Positions 3,535 through 32,669 of a stretch of 41,724 bases of DNA are shown in pieces. Numbering within the stretch: the first letter of the stretch is position 1; each line of letters opens with the position of its first letter. The notes below the pieces were generated by a model. The model did not search any database. It was not told the DNA's origin and worked only from the letters and a program-made list of their open reading frames with translations. Origin of the DNA: Candidatus Sumerlaeota bacterium (GTDB lineage Bacteria; Sumerlaeota; Sumerlaeia; JAFGJS01); contig JAFGJS010000116.1 in the NCBI GenBank assembly GCA_016928995.1, positions 1 through 41,724 of the forward strand, read 5' to 3'. A program made the position numbers and the translations under genes.

Positions 3535-5262
3535 TCAAACGCTGAGCTGATTGAGTTCCTGCAGCAGGCTGTCGCCGTCGTTATCGTCGTAGATTAGAAT
3601 CTTATAGCGATAGCCCTGCTCGGTGAGGAAGCGCTGGCGGTTTTCGGCGAACTCCTGATCCTTGGTCTCCTTGGTCACCAGCGAGTAGAAATGTGCGATG
3701 CGGCCTTCATCCTTCGGCCGCAGAATCCGGCCGAGACGCTGCGCCTCCTCCTGACGCGAGCCGAAGGTGCCGCTGATCTGGATCGCCACATTGGCGTCGG
3801 GCAGGTCGATGGCGAAATTCGCCACCTTGCTCACGATCAGCACCTTGATCTCGCCGGATTTGAACTGGCTGTAAATCGCCTCGCGCTCCTTGTTCGGCGT
3901 CTTGCCCGTGATGATCGGCGCGCCGAAACGCGCGGCCATATCGTCGAGCTGCCCGAGGTACTGGCCGATGATCAGGATATTGTCTTCCTTGTGCCGTTCG
4001 ATCAGTTTTTCCACCACGTCGAACTTGATCGGATTTTCCGAGGAGATGCGGAATTTCCATTTCTGGTCCGCCACGGCGTATTCCAACCGCCGTTCCTCCG
4101 GCAGGGGGATGCGGATCTCATGGCACTCGGCCGTGGCGATCCACCCCTGTTTCTCCAGCTGCTTCCACGGCACGTCGTATTTCTTCGGGCCGATCAGGCT
4201 GAAGACGTCGTCCTCCTTGCCGTCCTCGCGCACCAGCGTGGCTGTCAGCCCCAGGCGCCGCTTGCCCTGAATCTCCGCTACGGCGCGAAACACCGGCGCC
4301 GGCAACAGATGCACCTCGTCATAGACGATCAGCCCCCAGCGGCCGTCATTAAACAGCTCCAGGTGCTCAAAGTCTTCATTGCGGTTCTTGCGATACGTCA
4401 GAATCTGGTACGTGGTGATCACCACCGGCCGGTCCACCTGCTTGATCTCGCCGGAATACTCGCCCACATCCTCCTCGTTCAGGCTCGTGCGATTGATCAG
4501 CTCCTCCCGCCATTGCCGCAACGCGGTGATGTTCGTCGTCAGCACCAGCGAGCACTGCTTGACCTTGGAGATCACGCCGATGCCGATGACCGTCTTGCCC
4601 GCGCCGCAAGGCAGCACCAGCACGCCGCTGCCGCCCCGGCTCGTTCCGCCCGCGTAAAACGTCTCCACCGCCTCGCGCTGATACTGCCGCAGATGCCATT
4701 CCCGGCCGGTCCGCTTGTGCAGTTCGTTCATGTGGACGTCCAGCGGCAAACCGTCTACATAGCCAGCCAGATCCTCGACCGGAAAGCCGATCTTGATCAG
4801 CGCCTGCTTGACCCGTCCCCGCATGCCCTTCTTCACCAGCAGCCGGTTCGGGCTCAATGGACCCTCTAAAAACGGATCAATGGTTTTATGGTGCTGAATC
4901 TCGCGGATCAACAGGGCGTCCTCGGATTCCAGCACCAGCGCCCGTTCGCCCTCTTTGATCAGCTTCAGCCGGCCATACCGCGCCACATAATCCTTGATGT
5001 CCTGCGTGATGTTCTGAGGGATGTCGTACTTGGTGAACGCGTGCAGCGCACCGAGGATGTCATCCGCGGTGAGTCCCGCCGACGCCGCGTTCCACAGCGA
5101 AAGCGGAGTGATCTGGTAGGTGTGGATATGCTCCGGGCTTTTCACCAGTTCGGCGAATTGCGCCAGAGCGTCGCGCGCCGCTTCGAACAATTGGTTGTTC
5201 GTTTCGAGCAGAATGCTGCGATCCGACTGTACCATAATCGGATTTTGCGGATTATAAACCAT
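3535..5262 (-). CDS. XPB/Rad25-type DNA helicase (superfamily 2)
   Basis: A 575-residue ATP-dependent 3'-5' DNA helicase of the XPB (Ssl2/Rad25) family, which in eukaryotes opens DNA during nucleotide excision repair; bacterial members are presumed to act in repair. The N-terminal XPB domain (about 10-190) includes MVQSDRSILLE. Then come Walker A LPCGAGKT (about 220), the DEVH box in VYDEVHLLPAP (about 315), motif III GLTATLVRED, whose RED is typical of XPB, and motif VI QRLGRILRPK (about 512). Family length is normal. The start at 5262 has only a weak GGTTAGG upstream; a second ATG 27 bases inside is possible. No Bax1-type nuclease partner gene is next to it. Confidence 0.93.
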   Translation of the reverse strand: MVYNPQNPIMVQSDRSILLETNNQLFEAARDALAQFAELVKSPEHIHTYQITPLSLWNAASAGLTADDILGALHAFTKYDIPQNITQDIKDYVARYGRLKLIKEGERALVLESEDALLIREIQHHKTIDPFLEGPLSPNRLLVKKGMRGRVKQALIKIGFPVEDLAGYVDGLPLDVHMNELHKRTGREWHLRQYQREAVETFYAGGTSRGGSGVLVLPCGAGKTVIGIGVISKVKQCSLVLTTNITALRQWREELINRTSLNEEDVGEYSGEIKQVDRPVVITTYQILTYRKNRNEDFEHLELFNDGRWGLIVYDEVHLLPAPVFRAVAEIQGKRRLGLTATLVREDGKEDDVFSLIGPKKYDVPWKQLEKQGWIATAECHEIRIPLPEERRLEYAVADQKWKFRISSENPIKFDVVEKLIERHKEDNILIIGQYLGQLDDMAARFGAPIITGKTPNKEREAIYSQFKSGEIKVLIVSKVANFAIDLPDANVAIQISGTFGSRQEEAQRLGRILRPKDEGRIAHFYSLVTKETKDQEFAENRQRFLTEQGYRYKILIYDDNDGDSLLQELNQLSV

Positions 5263-13306: not shown

Positions 13307-14635
13307 CTAAAAGCGCTGGCAGTGGGTCATTTCGTGAAAGTCCAGCTTGAATTGCCGTTCAGCCGTATGACGCGCGGCGTTGATCTTTGCGCCGGGCAAT
13401 TCGAAGGATTGAATCGAAACCTCCCACGGGCGCTCCATCGCGCAATGCAGATTGGACGCGAAGGATTCCCAGGTTCCAACCCCCATATCAGCGGCGACAG
13501 GGCATTCCGGAAATGGTTTCCTGTCGCCGTTGATCATTAATTGAAAGCGCACCTGATCCAGCCAGTCCGGCTCCAACGCGGACAACTGCGTTTCCGCCAT
13601 TCCGCTGGTGATCAATCCGGTTCGCAGCCCTCTTTGCTTCAGCGCCTGCGCCAGTTCCGCCACGAGACCGGGGCGATGCAATGGATCGGCGTATCCCCCC
13701 AGCCAGACCTCCTCCAGCCCGGGACCGGCGCCGTCGATCGCCGCCAGCAGCGCGTCAAGCGCCGGTTCCGTCAGCGCGCGGCGAGACTGGGGAATCACGG
13801 CGTGATAATATACGGCGCAGAGCCAGGCGCGCGAACCGTCGCGGATCAGCAACGGCGACTGAGACGGCAAATTGAGCGCATAGATTTCGATGGTGTTGCG
13901 GCGAGCGGCTTCGATGACTTCAACGAGCGGAATTTTCCGAAGCTCCGCGATGCGGCGCGCCACGAAATAAGTCAGGGCCGGCTCGTTTGTCTTGCCACGC
14001 TTGGGATTTGGCGCGAGGTACGGCGCGTCGGTTTCGATCAGCAGATCCTCGAGCCGCATCGCGGCGGCGATTTCCTGAATGTCTTCCGCCTTGTCGAACG
14101 TCACCACGCCGGTGAAACCGACTTTAAATCCGCGCTTCACGCACTCGCGCGCCTCGTCCAGCGTTCCCGTGAAGCAATGCACGATTCCGCGCTTGGGCAC
14201 GGGCTGCCGGTCGAGCGCGGCGAAAAGGTCGTCAAAGGCTTCGCGGCAGTGGATCACGACGGGCTTGCCGATTTGCGCGGCGAGCTCCAATTGCCGGAGC
14301 AGCGCGTCTTTTTGCGCCTCGGCGTAGTCGCGGCCGTAGTAATAATCCAATCCGATCTCGCCCACCGCCACAACCTCGGCGGCCTGAGTGGATTTTCGTA
14401 TGGCCTTCAGCGCAGCGTCATCGCAACGCGAAGCATGATGCGGATGCGCGCCGATCGTGCAGGAGACATTCTCAAACCGCCGGGCGAGTTCCAGCGCCTG
14501 CTGGCCGTCCTGGGGGCCGTCGCCGATGGTGACCATATGCTCGATGTTGGCCAGCCGCGCGCGATGAATCACAGCCTCCACCTGCGAGTGCAGCCGTTGA
14601 TCCGTGAGGTGCGTATGTGAATCGATAATGCCCAT
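13307..14635 (-). CDS. tatD: TatD-family metal-dependent DNase with C-terminal extension
   Basis: Residues 1-255 are a complete TatD hydrolase (a metal-dependent TIM-barrel nuclease): metal ligands His7 and His9 in DSHTHL, Glu93 in VGEIGLDYYY, His129 in VIHCRE, His153 in VHCFTG and Asp203 in ETDAPYLAP. A normal TatD ends near residue 260, but this protein runs to 442. The extension (about 260-442) includes LEEVWLGGYADPLHRPGLV and LRTGLITSG, which look like the second and third strands of a radical-SAM fold, yet no CxxxCxxC cluster motif is present; only a lone Cys273 sits near the expected place. The gene ends convergent with glnK, 5 bases apart. The TatD call is firm; the reading of the extension is inference. 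Confidence 0.9.
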   Translation of the reverse strand: MGIIDSHTHLTDQRLHSQVEAVIHRARLANIEHMVTIGDGPQDGQQALELARRFENVSCTIGAHPHHASRCDDAALKAIRKSTQAAEVVAVGEIGLDYYYGRDYAEAQKDALLRQLELAAQIGKPVVIHCREAFDDLFAALDRQPVPKRGIVHCFTGTLDEARECVKRGFKVGFTGVVTFDKAEDIQEIAAAMRLEDLLIETDAPYLAPNPKRGKTNEPALTYFVARRIAELRKIPLVEVIEAARRNTIEIYALNLPSQSPLLIRDGSRAWLCAVYYHAVIPQSRRALTEPALDALLAAIDGAGPGLEEVWLGGYADPLHRPGLVAELAQALKQRGLRTGLITSGMAETQLSALEPDWLDQVRFQLMINGDRKPFPECPVAADMGVGTWESFASNLHCAMERPWEVSIQSFELPGAKINAARHTAERQFKLDFHEMTHCQRF

Positions 14636-28127: not shown

Positions 28128-31100
28128 TTACTGCCCGACGCTGGAGATGCGCTGCAGACTGCCTTTCAGGCCGGCGCGATATGTGATGCGGCCGCCAGCA
28201 GCGCGCAGACGCTGCTCGTCTTCCGGCGTCAGCCGGTGCAGATACGGCGCGACGACCTTGCTGCCGGCCGGCACGACCGGCGCGATCACCTGGCCCAGCT
28301 TGTTTTGCGGCGTCTGCTCATCGCCCAGGAAAAATTCAATCAGCACGCTGCGCGCGTCGCTCTCGCCTTCGTTGGCGATGGCGGCTTGCAGCTCAAGCAG
28401 CTTATCCTCGCCAAGCGGACGCACGGTGATCCCTTCGGGGATCAGTTTATATTTCGTCTTCGCCGTCACGGAATACATGCCGATGTTGTCATTCTCATCC
28501 GACTCGTCGTTCCGGTTGTCGCTGTCCGCCTTGAACCAGACAGTCTTCTGACCGGCGTTGCTCCAAGGATCCCAACGCACAATGACATCCCGTCGCTCGC
28601 CCGGCGCCAGACGCTCGATCTGTTGACGCTCCCCGACCTGAGGGCGCGCGAAGGCAGGATTGCCATAGTCGGGATTCCGCTCATAAATATCGACCTTCAC
28701 GTTGGTTGCGGCGCTGTCGCCGTGATTGTACACAGGCACGCGAAAAAAAATCGTCTCGCTCTCGACCGGCTCCTCCGGCCAGCTCTCGATTTTGCTCGCG
28801 TCAATGGCAAGATCGGGCAAATCGCGATTCGTCAACATGCGCGAAAGCATCGTACCCGGAGCCAAAACATCACCAGGCGAGCATTCTAATTTCAATTGCA
28901 CGGGCATACGCTTGGCCTGGACGCGGCCTTTCAGCCGCACGATGCGCTGCTGACCCGGCTGCAACGGATCGCACTGCGCTTTGATGGCAGGTCCGGCGCT
29001 TCCCTCCAAGGTGAAATCCAGCCGCTGCGCGCCATTCTCACCCGCAGCCACGATGATCAAAGGCCAATCGACATCGATATTCCGGCCGTTCTTGACCGCC
29101 TGAACCGGCCAGGCGTTCGTACTGATGCGGACTTCATTCGGCTTCGCGGCATCGCCCGCCGGAAGCGCCAATGCGAGCATCGTGCCGGACTCCTCTCCGG
29201 ACTCCGGCGGCGCGATATAATTCTTCAGCTCCGCGCGATAAACTTGCAGTCCGCCACGATGCGTTGCGGTTTCCTTGACGGGAAGCGCAACCGTCACTCG
29301 AACCGTCTCACCTGCAGCGCAATGAAAGCTCTCTTTCCAGACTTCCAATCGAGCTTGCGTCTGGTCCGAAATTTCCAGCAGCCCGTCCGTAACCGGCAGC
29401 CGCGACGGATTGTGGATGACGATCTCGCAATCCACGAGGCCGCCGGGCTGATATATGCGCTGGACAGGCTTGACAGTTTTGAATTCTTTCAATCGCAGAA
29501 ATGGTTGTCCGACCTCGACCGGCGCCCAGGCGATGGCGGCGGAGCCGTCCGCATCCCAGGCGTAAGCGCGCAAATGCCATTCGCCCGTGGATGCGCCTTG
29601 CGGAATGGCGAAGGTCTTTTCCAGCGCGCCGCCGCGCAAACGCTCGCGCGGCCATTGGACGGCTGGTTCGTCGTTTTCATTGTAAAGCGCGGCTTGGACA
29701 AAGGCGTTGGGCATGCCTTCAAACTTGTGCCGGGCGGTGATCGTTGTCTGGACGTCGTCGCGCACGACCTCGACAGGCAACGCAATTCGCTCCTCACGGC
29801 CATACTGAGGCAGAACCAGGGCCGGATCGCCAAGGAAAAGGAACATCTGGGCCATGTCCTCCGGATAGGAAAACGCGAGATAGCGGTATTGCGACAACAG
29901 CAAGGCCGGGCCGGCATAACGGCGCTGCTCGGTGAACAGAATATTAAACAGCACCGCGCAAACTTTACGGTGGCTGGAAGGAATACCCGGACCCGTGGGC
30001 ACATAACAGCCGATCACGCCGCCGTTTTTCACGCGCATCATGTCTTCCGTGATGCAGATATTCCACGGCGGATCAGGATAGTCGATCGCCCCGCTGTTGC
30101 AGGTCATGTTCACCAGCAGCGGCGGACGCGCGCGGTTTTTCAGCATCAGGTTGTCGCTGTTGAGCGAATCGCCGCCGAACCAAAGTTTCTCATCGCTCCA
30201 GATGTTCGGCGAACCGTGGCCGTGGTAGCTGACGAACAGGGCGCCGCGATTAAAAGCATCCATAATCTTCGTCGTGGCCTGCGGGCTAATTTTCAGGCGA
30301 TCAGCCTCCACCTTGTCGAGCGGAAGAATCGAATTTTCAGCCAGCGGCTCCCGGTCGAGATAGACGCGGTTCACGGTGTAATGCGGCGGAATGAACTGCC
30401 GGCGCAGATCCTCGCAGTCATCGTCGAACTCGCCGTTGTCCGCGACCATCGTCAGCGTCTCGCGCCAGGGGCCGGGCGCAGGATCGGAAAGATACTGGAT
30501 CGTCTTGTTCACCACAGTATATGCATCGGGAACATTGGCGACAGAGATGCGGCCCAGCATGATGTCGGAATACAGGTCGTCGCCGCAGAGCACGGTGTAA
30601 TAATGATCCGACGCCCAGAAATCGATGCCGCTCGCAGGATGCAGGACGTAGCTCGGCACAAAGTTTCGCACATCATTGCGGAAATCGCCGCGATAATCGC
30701 TGGTGGCGTCGCCCATCAGCACGACATACATCGGTCCGCCGCCGGCCCAATGCCGCATGGTGTAATCGAGGAAACCCTTGATCGCCAGCGGGCTTTCGTG
30801 GCCGCCGTCAAGGTGGTTGTAGATCGACTGCACGTCCACAACGCGCGAACGCAAGCCGTTGCGGCGGTGAAAATCAGCCAGGCGTTCCGCGGGCTGGATG
30901 AAATCCGCATGGCTGATGATCAGGTATTCCACCGGCTCCGTCTGGCTCAAGGCGTCGTCCCAGGCTGGCGTTCCCACACGCTCAGGCTCCTTCACAAGGG
31001 CGAGCGACTGCACCAGATACGTTCGATCCCCCGGTTGCGAGGCGCCGAAGAGCAAGCCCCGCGCGTCGTTCGAGGCGTATGCGATATATTGCGGCCGGCG

Positions 31101-32669
31101 CGGATCGGTCACATCCAGAATCAACGGCAGCGGCACAGCCGGCGGCGCCAGACGGAACGCCGCGGCATCGGCGTCCTGCGCGCCCGATGCATCCAGCGTC
31201 GCGCCGCTCTGAAAAATCAACTGCCCGTCTTCCAACTCCAGCTTTTGATCCTCAGCGATCCGCACAAAATCCAGATACACCCCTGCCTCGTCCGAACCTT
31301 CAAGGCGCTGAAAAGTCATCCGGTTGTCTTTCGGTTTCAAGACTCCGGCGGGAAGCTCGAATTCGAATTCCAACTCTTCAAGATTCTTCAGGCTGAACGT
31401 TTTGGAATGCCCGCTCAGTTCAACCTTGACATCCGCGGCAGGCTCCAACTGCTCTTCATCGAGATAAAAGCCGATTTTCATTTGAACGCTGCCGCTTGTT
31501 TCCGCCAGGTGCGGCGCGTCGAATTCAATCTCGACCGTTTCATTCTGCGGAAGCTCCTGCCAGCACCAATTGTAATCCTTGATCGCCAGAAAGGTGTCCG
31601 TATGTTTGATCAACAGCTGATCCTGCTCGACGGTTTGAACGCCGCGATAGAGCGTGCGCGGCTGCGTTTCCGCCGGAATTTCAGGACGCACGACAGGCAT
31701 GCGCAACGGTTGCGCCGCGGCGTCTTCCACCAGGTAGTACACGCTGTACTTCGAATACTCCGAAGTATTGGCGCCGAGATAGCAAAGCAAGGCGTCCTGG
31801 GCCGTAAAACTGCCGGCCAAGCCGCCGATCGTCTCGGTGGGGATTTCCTCGCCGCGATGCATGAGGTGCAGGTTGCGCGGATCCACGGCGTCAGGATCCA
31901 ATCCTGCCTGCAGCAGAGTCTTGCGGGTGATTTGATACAGCCCGTCGCGGCTGGTTTCGATGCGCAGCAACGGACGCAGCCCCAAGGGACGCGCCGGAAG
32001 CTCGGATGCGCCCGACTCATAGCGATTGAACGAAGGCGGATCGGCCGCGCCGTAAAGTTGCAGTCCATCCAGGTTGGAGACGAACCCGGCCATCAGCTCG
32101 TCGCGATAAATCTGATGCGAACGCAAAGCGGGATCGAACACCGGATAACCGGCGATGACTCCCGGCGGATCGGCGGGCTTGTCGAATTTTAAGAAACACT
32201 CTATGTTGCGCAGCGCAATTTCCTGTTTGCCCGATTTGAGCGTCACGGTGTCGAGCCGCAATTCCATGACGCGGAAATGCCGCGACACGCAAACCTGCGG
32301 CATGGAATTAAAACGGGCCGTGAGCGCTTTGACGAATCCCTCTTCCCCGGATTGCAGCCGACTCCAATCCAGCGTCTGTGTTGTGCCGTCGCGAGTTACT
32401 TGCGCCTCGGCCGCGCGAATCTCGCAGGTGATTTCGCGGTCGAACGGAACGATGAAAAAGAAACGGGCTGGCTGCGGCGCATGATCGAACTGATGCGAGA
32501 ATTCAATGCCTTCAGCCGTGCTGACCGCATGATCCGCCAGAATGTTCGGGCAAGAGGGCTCATCCCCGGCCTCGGCCGAAGTCAGCGGCGGAGCAACGGC
32601 GCTCAGCAGCATGGCGAATGTGAAAATGAGGATCGGGCGATGAGTTCGAAGTAAAAGGACTGGTTTCAT
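28128..32669 (-). CDS. Giant secreted C25 (gingipain-type) cysteine peptidase
   Basis: A 1513-residue exported protein. An N-terminal signal peptide (LIFTFAMLLSAVAPPLTSAEA) is followed by about 500 residues of beta-rich pre-domain. The peptidase C25 region (about 590-910) begins EYLIISHADFIQPAERLADF and includes MYVVLMGDATSDY, the catalytic His in SYHGHGSPNIW (about 815) and the catalytic Cys in LVNMTCNSGAID (about 855). After it come immunoglobulin-like/CARDB-type modules, one with RVPVYNHGDSAATNVKVDIYE (about 1300). No clear type IX sorting tail is seen. The start lacks a ribosome-binding site. The TPR gene ends 114 bases upstream on the same strand. It probably digests proteins outside the cell. 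Confidence 0.9.
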   Translation of the reverse strand: MKPVLLLRTHRPILIFTFAMLLSAVAPPLTSAEAGDEPSCPNILADHAVSTAEGIEFSHQFDHAPQPARFFFIVPFDREITCEIRAAEAQVTRDGTTQTLDWSRLQSGEEGFVKALTARFNSMPQVCVSRHFRVMELRLDTVTLKSGKQEIALRNIECFLKFDKPADPPGVIAGYPVFDPALRSHQIYRDELMAGFVSNLDGLQLYGAADPPSFNRYESGASELPARPLGLRPLLRIETSRDGLYQITRKTLLQAGLDPDAVDPRNLHLMHRGEEIPTETIGGLAGSFTAQDALLCYLGANTSEYSKYSVYYLVEDAAAQPLRMPVVRPEIPAETQPRTLYRGVQTVEQDQLLIKHTDTFLAIKDYNWCWQELPQNETVEIEFDAPHLAETSGSVQMKIGFYLDEEQLEPAADVKVELSGHSKTFSLKNLEELEFEFELPAGVLKPKDNRMTFQRLEGSDEAGVYLDFVRIAEDQKLELEDGQLIFQSGATLDASGAQDADAAAFRLAPPAVPLPLILDVTDPRRPQYIAYASNDARGLLFGASQPGDRTYLVQSLALVKEPERVGTPAWDDALSQTEPVEYLIISHADFIQPAERLADFHRRNGLRSRVVDVQSIYNHLDGGHESPLAIKGFLDYTMRHWAGGGPMYVVLMGDATSDYRGDFRNDVRNFVPSYVLHPASGIDFWASDHYYTVLCGDDLYSDIMLGRISVANVPDAYTVVNKTIQYLSDPAPGPWRETLTMVADNGEFDDDCEDLRRQFIPPHYTVNRVYLDREPLAENSILPLDKVEADRLKISPQATTKIMDAFNRGALFVSYHGHGSPNIWSDEKLWFGGDSLNSDNLMLKNRARPPLLVNMTCNSGAIDYPDPPWNICITEDMMRVKNGGVIGCYVPTGPGIPSSHRKVCAVLFNILFTEQRRYAGPALLLSQYRYLAFSYPEDMAQMFLFLGDPALVLPQYGREERIALPVEVVRDDVQTTITARHKFEGMPNAFVQAALYNENDEPAVQWPRERLRGGALEKTFAIPQGASTGEWHLRAYAWDADGSAAIAWAPVEVGQPFLRLKEFKTVKPVQRIYQPGGLVDCEIVIHNPSRLPVTDGLLEISDQTQARLEVWKESFHCAAGETVRVTVALPVKETATHRGGLQVYRAELKNYIAPPESGEESGTMLALALPAGDAAKPNEVRISTNAWPVQAVKNGRNIDVDWPLIIVAAGENGAQRLDFTLEGSAGPAIKAQCDPLQPGQQRIVRLKGRVQAKRMPVQLKLECSPGDVLAPGTMLSRMLTNRDLPDLAIDASKIESWPEEPVESETIFFRVPVYNHGDSAATNVKVDIYERNPDYGNPAFARPQVGERQQIERLAPGERRDVIVRWDPWSNAGQKTVWFKADSDNRNDESDENDNIGMYSVTAKTKYKLIPEGITVRPLGEDKLLELQAAIANEGESDARSVLIEFFLGDEQTPQNKLGQVIAPVVPAGSKVVAPYLHRLTPEDEQRLRAAGGRITYRAGLKGSLQRISSVGQ

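Follow-up and report, generated by a model that had tools for sequence, protein, structure and literature searches.

The window analysed here is a 41,724 nucleotide stretch of DNA from a Candidatus Sumerlaeota bacterium. On its minus strand, positions 13307..14635 hold a single open reading frame (442 codons plus stop, with an ATG start and a 442 amino acid product in the window's ORF list) that matches TatD over its first part and the TIGR04038 family over the remainder, and which we describe as a TatD/degenerate radical-SAM fusion gene. The gene closes a minus-strand run of ileS, lspA, accD and tatD, and it converges on the gene for a PII protein and an apparent ammonium transporter gene (the latter identified by eye); the neighbouring genes gave no pointer to a special partner for the fusion. 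Antisense to it, at 13541-14620 on the plus strand, lies a 359-codon open frame that is probably a shadow of the codon bias of the fusion gene. Elsewhere in the window, 3535-5262 (minus strand) encodes a DNA repair helicase of the bacterial XPB/Rad25 type (NF045503, 861 bits), and 28128-32669 (minus strand) a protein of 1513 residues in which a C25 (gingipain-family) peptidase domain and a CARDB domain were recognised.

The TatD nuclease domain occupies residues 1-252 of the fusion protein (13880..14635, minus strand; PF01026, 4.5e-77), and residues 4-252 match PF01026 with 259.3 bits (cut-off 27) and TIGR00010 with 253 bits. Residues H7, H9, E93, H129, H153 and D203, which we take to be the TatD metal-ligand/catalytic site, are all kept, and their columns are invariant in our alignments with 14 (A1) and 69 (A3) fused relatives. 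The protein is the sole TatD over the cut-off in its 92% complete draft genome (161 contigs). By its sequence the N-terminal domain is an ordinary member of the TatD DNases (PF01026/TIGR00010), and it is predicted to be an active nuclease. It differs from the unfused TatD proteins of our survey in that their profile match ends at about position 250-285, whereas the window protein continues into a long C-terminal extension.

This extension consists of residues 253-442 (13310..13879, minus strand). An initial annotation of this DNA had placed an extension of 180 residues at 13307-13858; the extension is real, but it is 190 amino acids long and those coordinates stop about 21 bases short of its border with the TatD domain. 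Its top NCBIfam match is TIGR04038 (E 2.9e-5, 24.0 bits; 21.2 bits for the whole protein), tatD_link_rSAM, the TatD family nuclease-associated radical SAM protein, which corresponds to the separate known family of TatD-linked radical-SAM proteins to which the annotation had referred. Both scores are far below the curated cut-off of 129.7 bits. With a profile of our own, for which 13 intact fusions from the same class were used, the extension scored 32.0 bits, compared with -0.5 bits for the reversed sequence and 7.2 bits for the best shuffle (4000 shuffles of the two degenerate domains, of which 2444 were scored). The domain of genome G007 (below) reaches 98 bits and is a clear family member by descent.

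How specific is this likeness to the TatD-linked family as opposed to radical-SAM proteins in general? With the 13-fusion profile the best domain of the window protein scores 30.9 bits and the best of 15 other-radical-SAM loci of the class 29.4 bits; beyond the cluster loop the values are 30.3 and 24.2 bits, respectively. When the window genome was searched with TIGR04038, two other proteins scored higher (27.6 and 24.3 bits) than the window protein (22.6 bits); both are scores such as generic radical-SAM proteins reach, and no second, intact TIGR04038 protein was found over the cut-off in that genome. TIGR04038 had matches in all 14 of 14 control genomes, in 13 of them below the cut-off only. 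By score alone, then, the likeness of the extension to the TatD-linked family hardly exceeds that of generic radical-SAM proteins to it, a modest specificity. Since the score barely separates the families, the case for TatD-linked descent lies mainly in the place of the extension behind TatD, its end-to-end collinearity with fused relatives and the position of its TatD half in a tree (below). The window protein shares with TIGR04038 proteins the same TatD fusion in the same order and a collinear homology over residues 290-436. It differs from them in having no CxxxCxxC motif, in reading YADP at the GxGEP motif, in the loss of about ten residues at the first strand, and in its score, 24 bits against a family cut-off of 129.7.

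The lost cluster loop site was placed, approximately, at residues 264-276 (IRDGSRAWLCAVY; 13808..13846, minus strand) by an alignment of 147 fusions (143 intact and four Cys-poor; it omits nine of 72 fusion-bearing loci, which were read separately). In this alignment about ten residues of the loop including the first motif cysteine (Cys1) are gone, Cys2 is aligned to A270, and Cys3 corresponds to C273. The pairing of C273 with the third motif cysteine recurs in the A1 and A3 alignments, in a stretch (260-288) that is poorly modelled (pLDDT <50). A six-frame translation of 13307-14635 contains no CxxxCxxC, on which ground a frameshift masking the motif was rejected, and the annotation's reading of a missing motif with a single cysteine, C273, nearby holds. 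The two strand patterns that it had pointed out, EVWLGGYADPL (residues 309-319) and GLRTGLITSG (residues 336-345), are both present in the extension. The former (13679..13711, minus strand) is, in the 147-row alignment, the eroded strand and loop of the GxGEP motif, the AdoMet-binding GGE-type motif in the TatD-linked family; in the window it reads GYADP, with G316 changed to A and E317 to D.

In radical-SAM enzymes three cysteine ligands are needed for the site-differentiated [4Fe-4S] cluster and the 5'-deoxyadenosyl radical. Because this set of three ligands is missing from the window domain, neither such a cluster nor the radical would be expected to form there, if the established chemistry is applied to it. 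One could imagine that the domain is still an active metalloenzyme whose site has been rearranged, with a cluster bound by C273 and cysteines downstream in the extension, and C273 and a few later cysteines are indeed present; however, they form no compact CxnCxnC motif, and the erosion extends to GxGEP and to further strongly conserved columns, which makes this alternative exceedingly improbable.

There are 37 extension columns conserved in at least 90% of the 143 intact fusions, of which the window protein keeps 14 and the other three Cys-poor copies (below) keep 18 (G007), 25 (G381) and 32 (G111); the minimum among intact fusions is 31. For the TatD half, 42 of the 46 columns conserved to the same degree are kept in the window. 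When the extension identities were compared with those of intact pairs at equal TatD identity, the window copy fell below the 1st percentile in 143 of 143 comparisons, and G007, G381 and G111 did so in 137, 40 and 2 comparisons, respectively. These column counts and identities together indicate fast divergence over the full length of the domain in the window and in G007, and little loss in G111 besides its cysteines.

Does the extension nevertheless retain a radical-SAM fold? In a model of the whole protein, made with 70 sequences, the mean pLDDT is 85.5 and residues 260-288 are below 50; a model of the extension only (45 sequences) has a mean pLDDT of 71.2 and a pTM of 0.71 with residues 253-287, the cluster-loop region, below 50. 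The first 16 Foldseek matches of the extension model against the PDB are radical-SAM proteins (top match TYW1 at E 2.2e-4; five at E <=0.001), as are the first 47 of the 50 rows listed by VIA-align, headed by NifB (Z 10.5 over 143 residues, 3.1 A), where Z values below 8 (row 37 onward) may mean only a common arrangement. Both models were built with intact relatives in the alignment, whose presence draws the fold toward radical-SAM, and we therefore read them as compatibility of the extension with a radical-SAM partial alpha/beta barrel and not as independent proof; the structure prediction and fold search that the annotation had proposed thus point to the predicted partial barrel. The window extension would have this barrel in common with NifB, viperin, PFL-activating enzyme, QueE and TYW1, from which it differs in the lack of cluster ligands and to which it is 7-20% identical in the VIA-align superpositions. 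A PDB sequence search with the extension gave a single match at E 1.3, which is not meaningful.

The same results bear on whether the extension is an unrelated domain (for example HAD-like), or a generic radical-SAM domain that was fused to TatD independently. Pfam PF00702 (HAD hydrolase) matches residues 225-354 just below threshold (25.5 bits, cut-off 26.4; 18.9 bits with the extension alone), and the profile score of the extension is just above those of generic radical-SAM proteins. Against this, the HAD match starts inside the TatD domain, the top NCBIfam match of the extension is TIGR04038, the extension can be aligned end to end with fused relatives, Foldseek and VIA-align find radical-SAM folds, and the TatD half adjoins an intact fusion in the tree. 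We regard an unrelated or independently fused domain as very improbable, and its HAD-like form was rejected on these grounds. Homology, collinearity, predicted fold and the absence of the motif agree with one another, and the annotation's central proposal of a TatD nuclease fused to a radical-SAM-like domain that lacks its cluster cysteines is largely borne out.

The fusion itself is common, a known architecture and no peculiarity of the window genome; it is the missing CxxxCxxC that is unusual. A scan of 386 sampled genomes found TatD fused to a TIGR04038-like extension at 87 places; it took matches with E up to 1e-95 and at most 4 candidates per genome, and may miss more strongly diverged fusions. 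All 87 were read (13 of the class together with the window genome, G000, and G007, then G039 and 71 others). The homologues do keep the cysteines: CxxxCxxC is present in 83 of the 87 and absent in 4 (G000, G007, G111 and G381), which fits the annotation's description of the window domain as degenerate. Named genomes were scanned separately, and the best 80 of 578 loci were taken, including Geobacter, Nitrospirae, Brocadiaceae and Desulfuromonadales, of which 69 were called fused and some of the other 11 are perhaps fused but cut, or masked by Ns; these 80 were found partly via the Cys motif and were kept out of the 83/87 count. Among 40 genomes of the window phylum, judged by how far the profile match extends, 14 have a fusion with the motif, 2 (G000 and G007) a fusion without it and 23 TatD alone; the remaining genome, G037, gave no match. 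Twelve of the 23 TatD-only loci were read, and no remnants of the domain were found behind TatD in any of the six frames, in flanks as long as those loci allow, so the domain losses there look clean. A first contig scan with the window protein as query found no relative, and no close relative of the window genome was found.

The other three Cys-poor fusions are like that of the window in joining TatD to a radical-SAM domain without the three-cysteine motif, but their lesions are of different kinds. In G007 (L036) Cys1 is kept and the stretch with Cys2 and Cys3 is gone; at the three cysteine positions G111 (L157) has S-T-C and G381 (L147) has S-T-T, and the G381 domain is also interrupted, close to its end, by two in-frame stops. 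With its Ser/Thr replacements and most of its domain kept, G111 is the clearest example of a TatD-linked radical-SAM domain that is poor in cysteines.

In a tree of the TatD domains (42 rows; of the 23 TatD-only genomes of the phylum 12 were entered, along with 15 fusions chosen from outside the phylum, of which L190 dropped out) the four Cys-poor copies stand at three places. The window copy adjoins the intact fusion of G018 (support 96/92), G007 falls within a family (100/100) in which the four other members sampled carry an unfused TatD, and the copies of G111 and G381, which belong to a different phylum from the window's, are paired (100/100). The well-supported branches force at least three changes, many other forks being open, and the TatD-only state requires 5 changes among the 42 rows. 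The three places and the different lesions show that cysteine loss is recurrent, and the position of the window copy beside the intact G018 fusion favours loss after fusion; loss after fusion, more than once, is the simplest history.

This recurrence also bears on the explanation that the missing motif is a sequencing or assembly artefact, with compensating frameshifts that mask an intact motif or misjoined contigs. The genome is a 161-contig draft; however, the motif is in none of the six frames, the divergence spans the whole domain, the frame is open and codon-biased, and three other genomes carry other kinds of lesion. An artefact is accordingly hardly credible as the cause.

Is the window extension retained by selection, or is it decaying? 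At the TatD identity of the window and G018 copies (0.38) the median extension identity of intact pairs is 0.43 and that of the window pair 0.20, or 47% of it. We simulated neutral drift to 47% of the starting identity with the base composition of the window (n=600), and the frame stayed open in 8 runs, while 3 runs ended with codon usage at least as gene-like as that of the window; under uniform mutation the corresponding counts were 5 and 1. The simulations had no frameshifts, which would lower the open-frame count. The window sequence is thus gene-like in a way that differs from simulated neutral drift, which counts against pure decay. Its synonymous codon usage is nevertheless mildly low: on a scale that starts at random usage and is set by 17 genes of the genome, the extension stands at 0.72, which is under the 2.5th percentile. 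With automatically chosen reference genes (L216 and L221 of 11 loci were dropped, as they had no target) the window has a z of -1.6, the G007 domain 0.9 and six intact controls -1.7 to 2.2; an earlier test with 11 genes put the window extension lower than the automatic-gene test, and the 17-gene result lies between the two. The G111/G381 pair, which lost Cys1 and Cys2 in common, gave a dN/dS of 0.18 (bootstrap 0.12-0.25) for TatD and 0.36 (0.22-0.59) for the extension, the latter from the 167 codons before the first stop. The extension value indicates that the domain there was selected against change after the loss of the cluster ligands, less strictly than TatD.

We think it likely that the protein is a working TatD nuclease joined to a translated, fast-evolving pseudoenzyme domain that is dead as a radical-SAM enzyme and is kept as a non-catalytic appendage. 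Its ancestor would have been an intact TatD-linked radical-SAM fusion, from which a deletion of about ten residues took Cys1 and probably the first barrel strand; Cys2 would have become alanine and the AdoMet-binding GxGEP become YADP. The remaining alpha/beta barrel core is predicted still to fold, and the extension, translated with TatD, would probably act in a non-catalytic way, for which stability, contact with an oligomer or a partner, and placement of a nucleic-acid substrate are candidate roles; a regulatory role, as the initial annotation had suggested, is possible. The modest family specificity, the mildly low codon usage, the TatD-only state of 23 of 40 genomes and the stops in G381 all count against such a retained pseudoenzyme.

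Several of these points are what would be expected of a decaying relic, in which radical-SAM activity is no longer needed and the extension is an in-frame passenger en route to the TatD-only state. The TatD-only genomes are spread over the TatD tree, G007 sits in a family whose other sampled members are without the domain, the window domain diverges far faster than its TatD with codon usage that is mildly relaxed, and G381 has its in-frame stops. On the other hand, the open frame and codon usage of the window are far more gene-like than simulated neutral drift, the codon usage of the G007 domain is normal, and G111/G381 show purifying selection. We rank a decaying relic second and consider it unlikely, with the retained non-catalytic appendage first. 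A broader proposal, that the radical-SAM half has a second, non-catalytic job (in the TatD oligomer or in substrate presentation) and that lineages independently dropped the chemistry and kept the barrel as a control or scaffold module, is one that we put forward tentatively and on balance doubt.

The separate losses in at least two other lineages hint that the domain is useful without its chemistry. Natural Cys-poor versions in three lineages, one of them showing purifying selection, allow the radical chemistry of the domain to be told apart from any structural role, and they offer a direct comparison between TatD fusions that have the cluster and those that do not, so that the function of a widespread and apparently uncharacterised fusion becomes testable. 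At the level of search results, one open-access library yielded no description of the function of the TatD-linked radical-SAM domain, nor of a Cys-less version of it.

One genome of the survey, G006, has an unfused TatD, and a stand-alone relative of TIGR04038 of 233 residues is encoded there at a separate locus (L035; G006:C82:5989-6624). This suggests that the TatD-linked domain is able to work alone.
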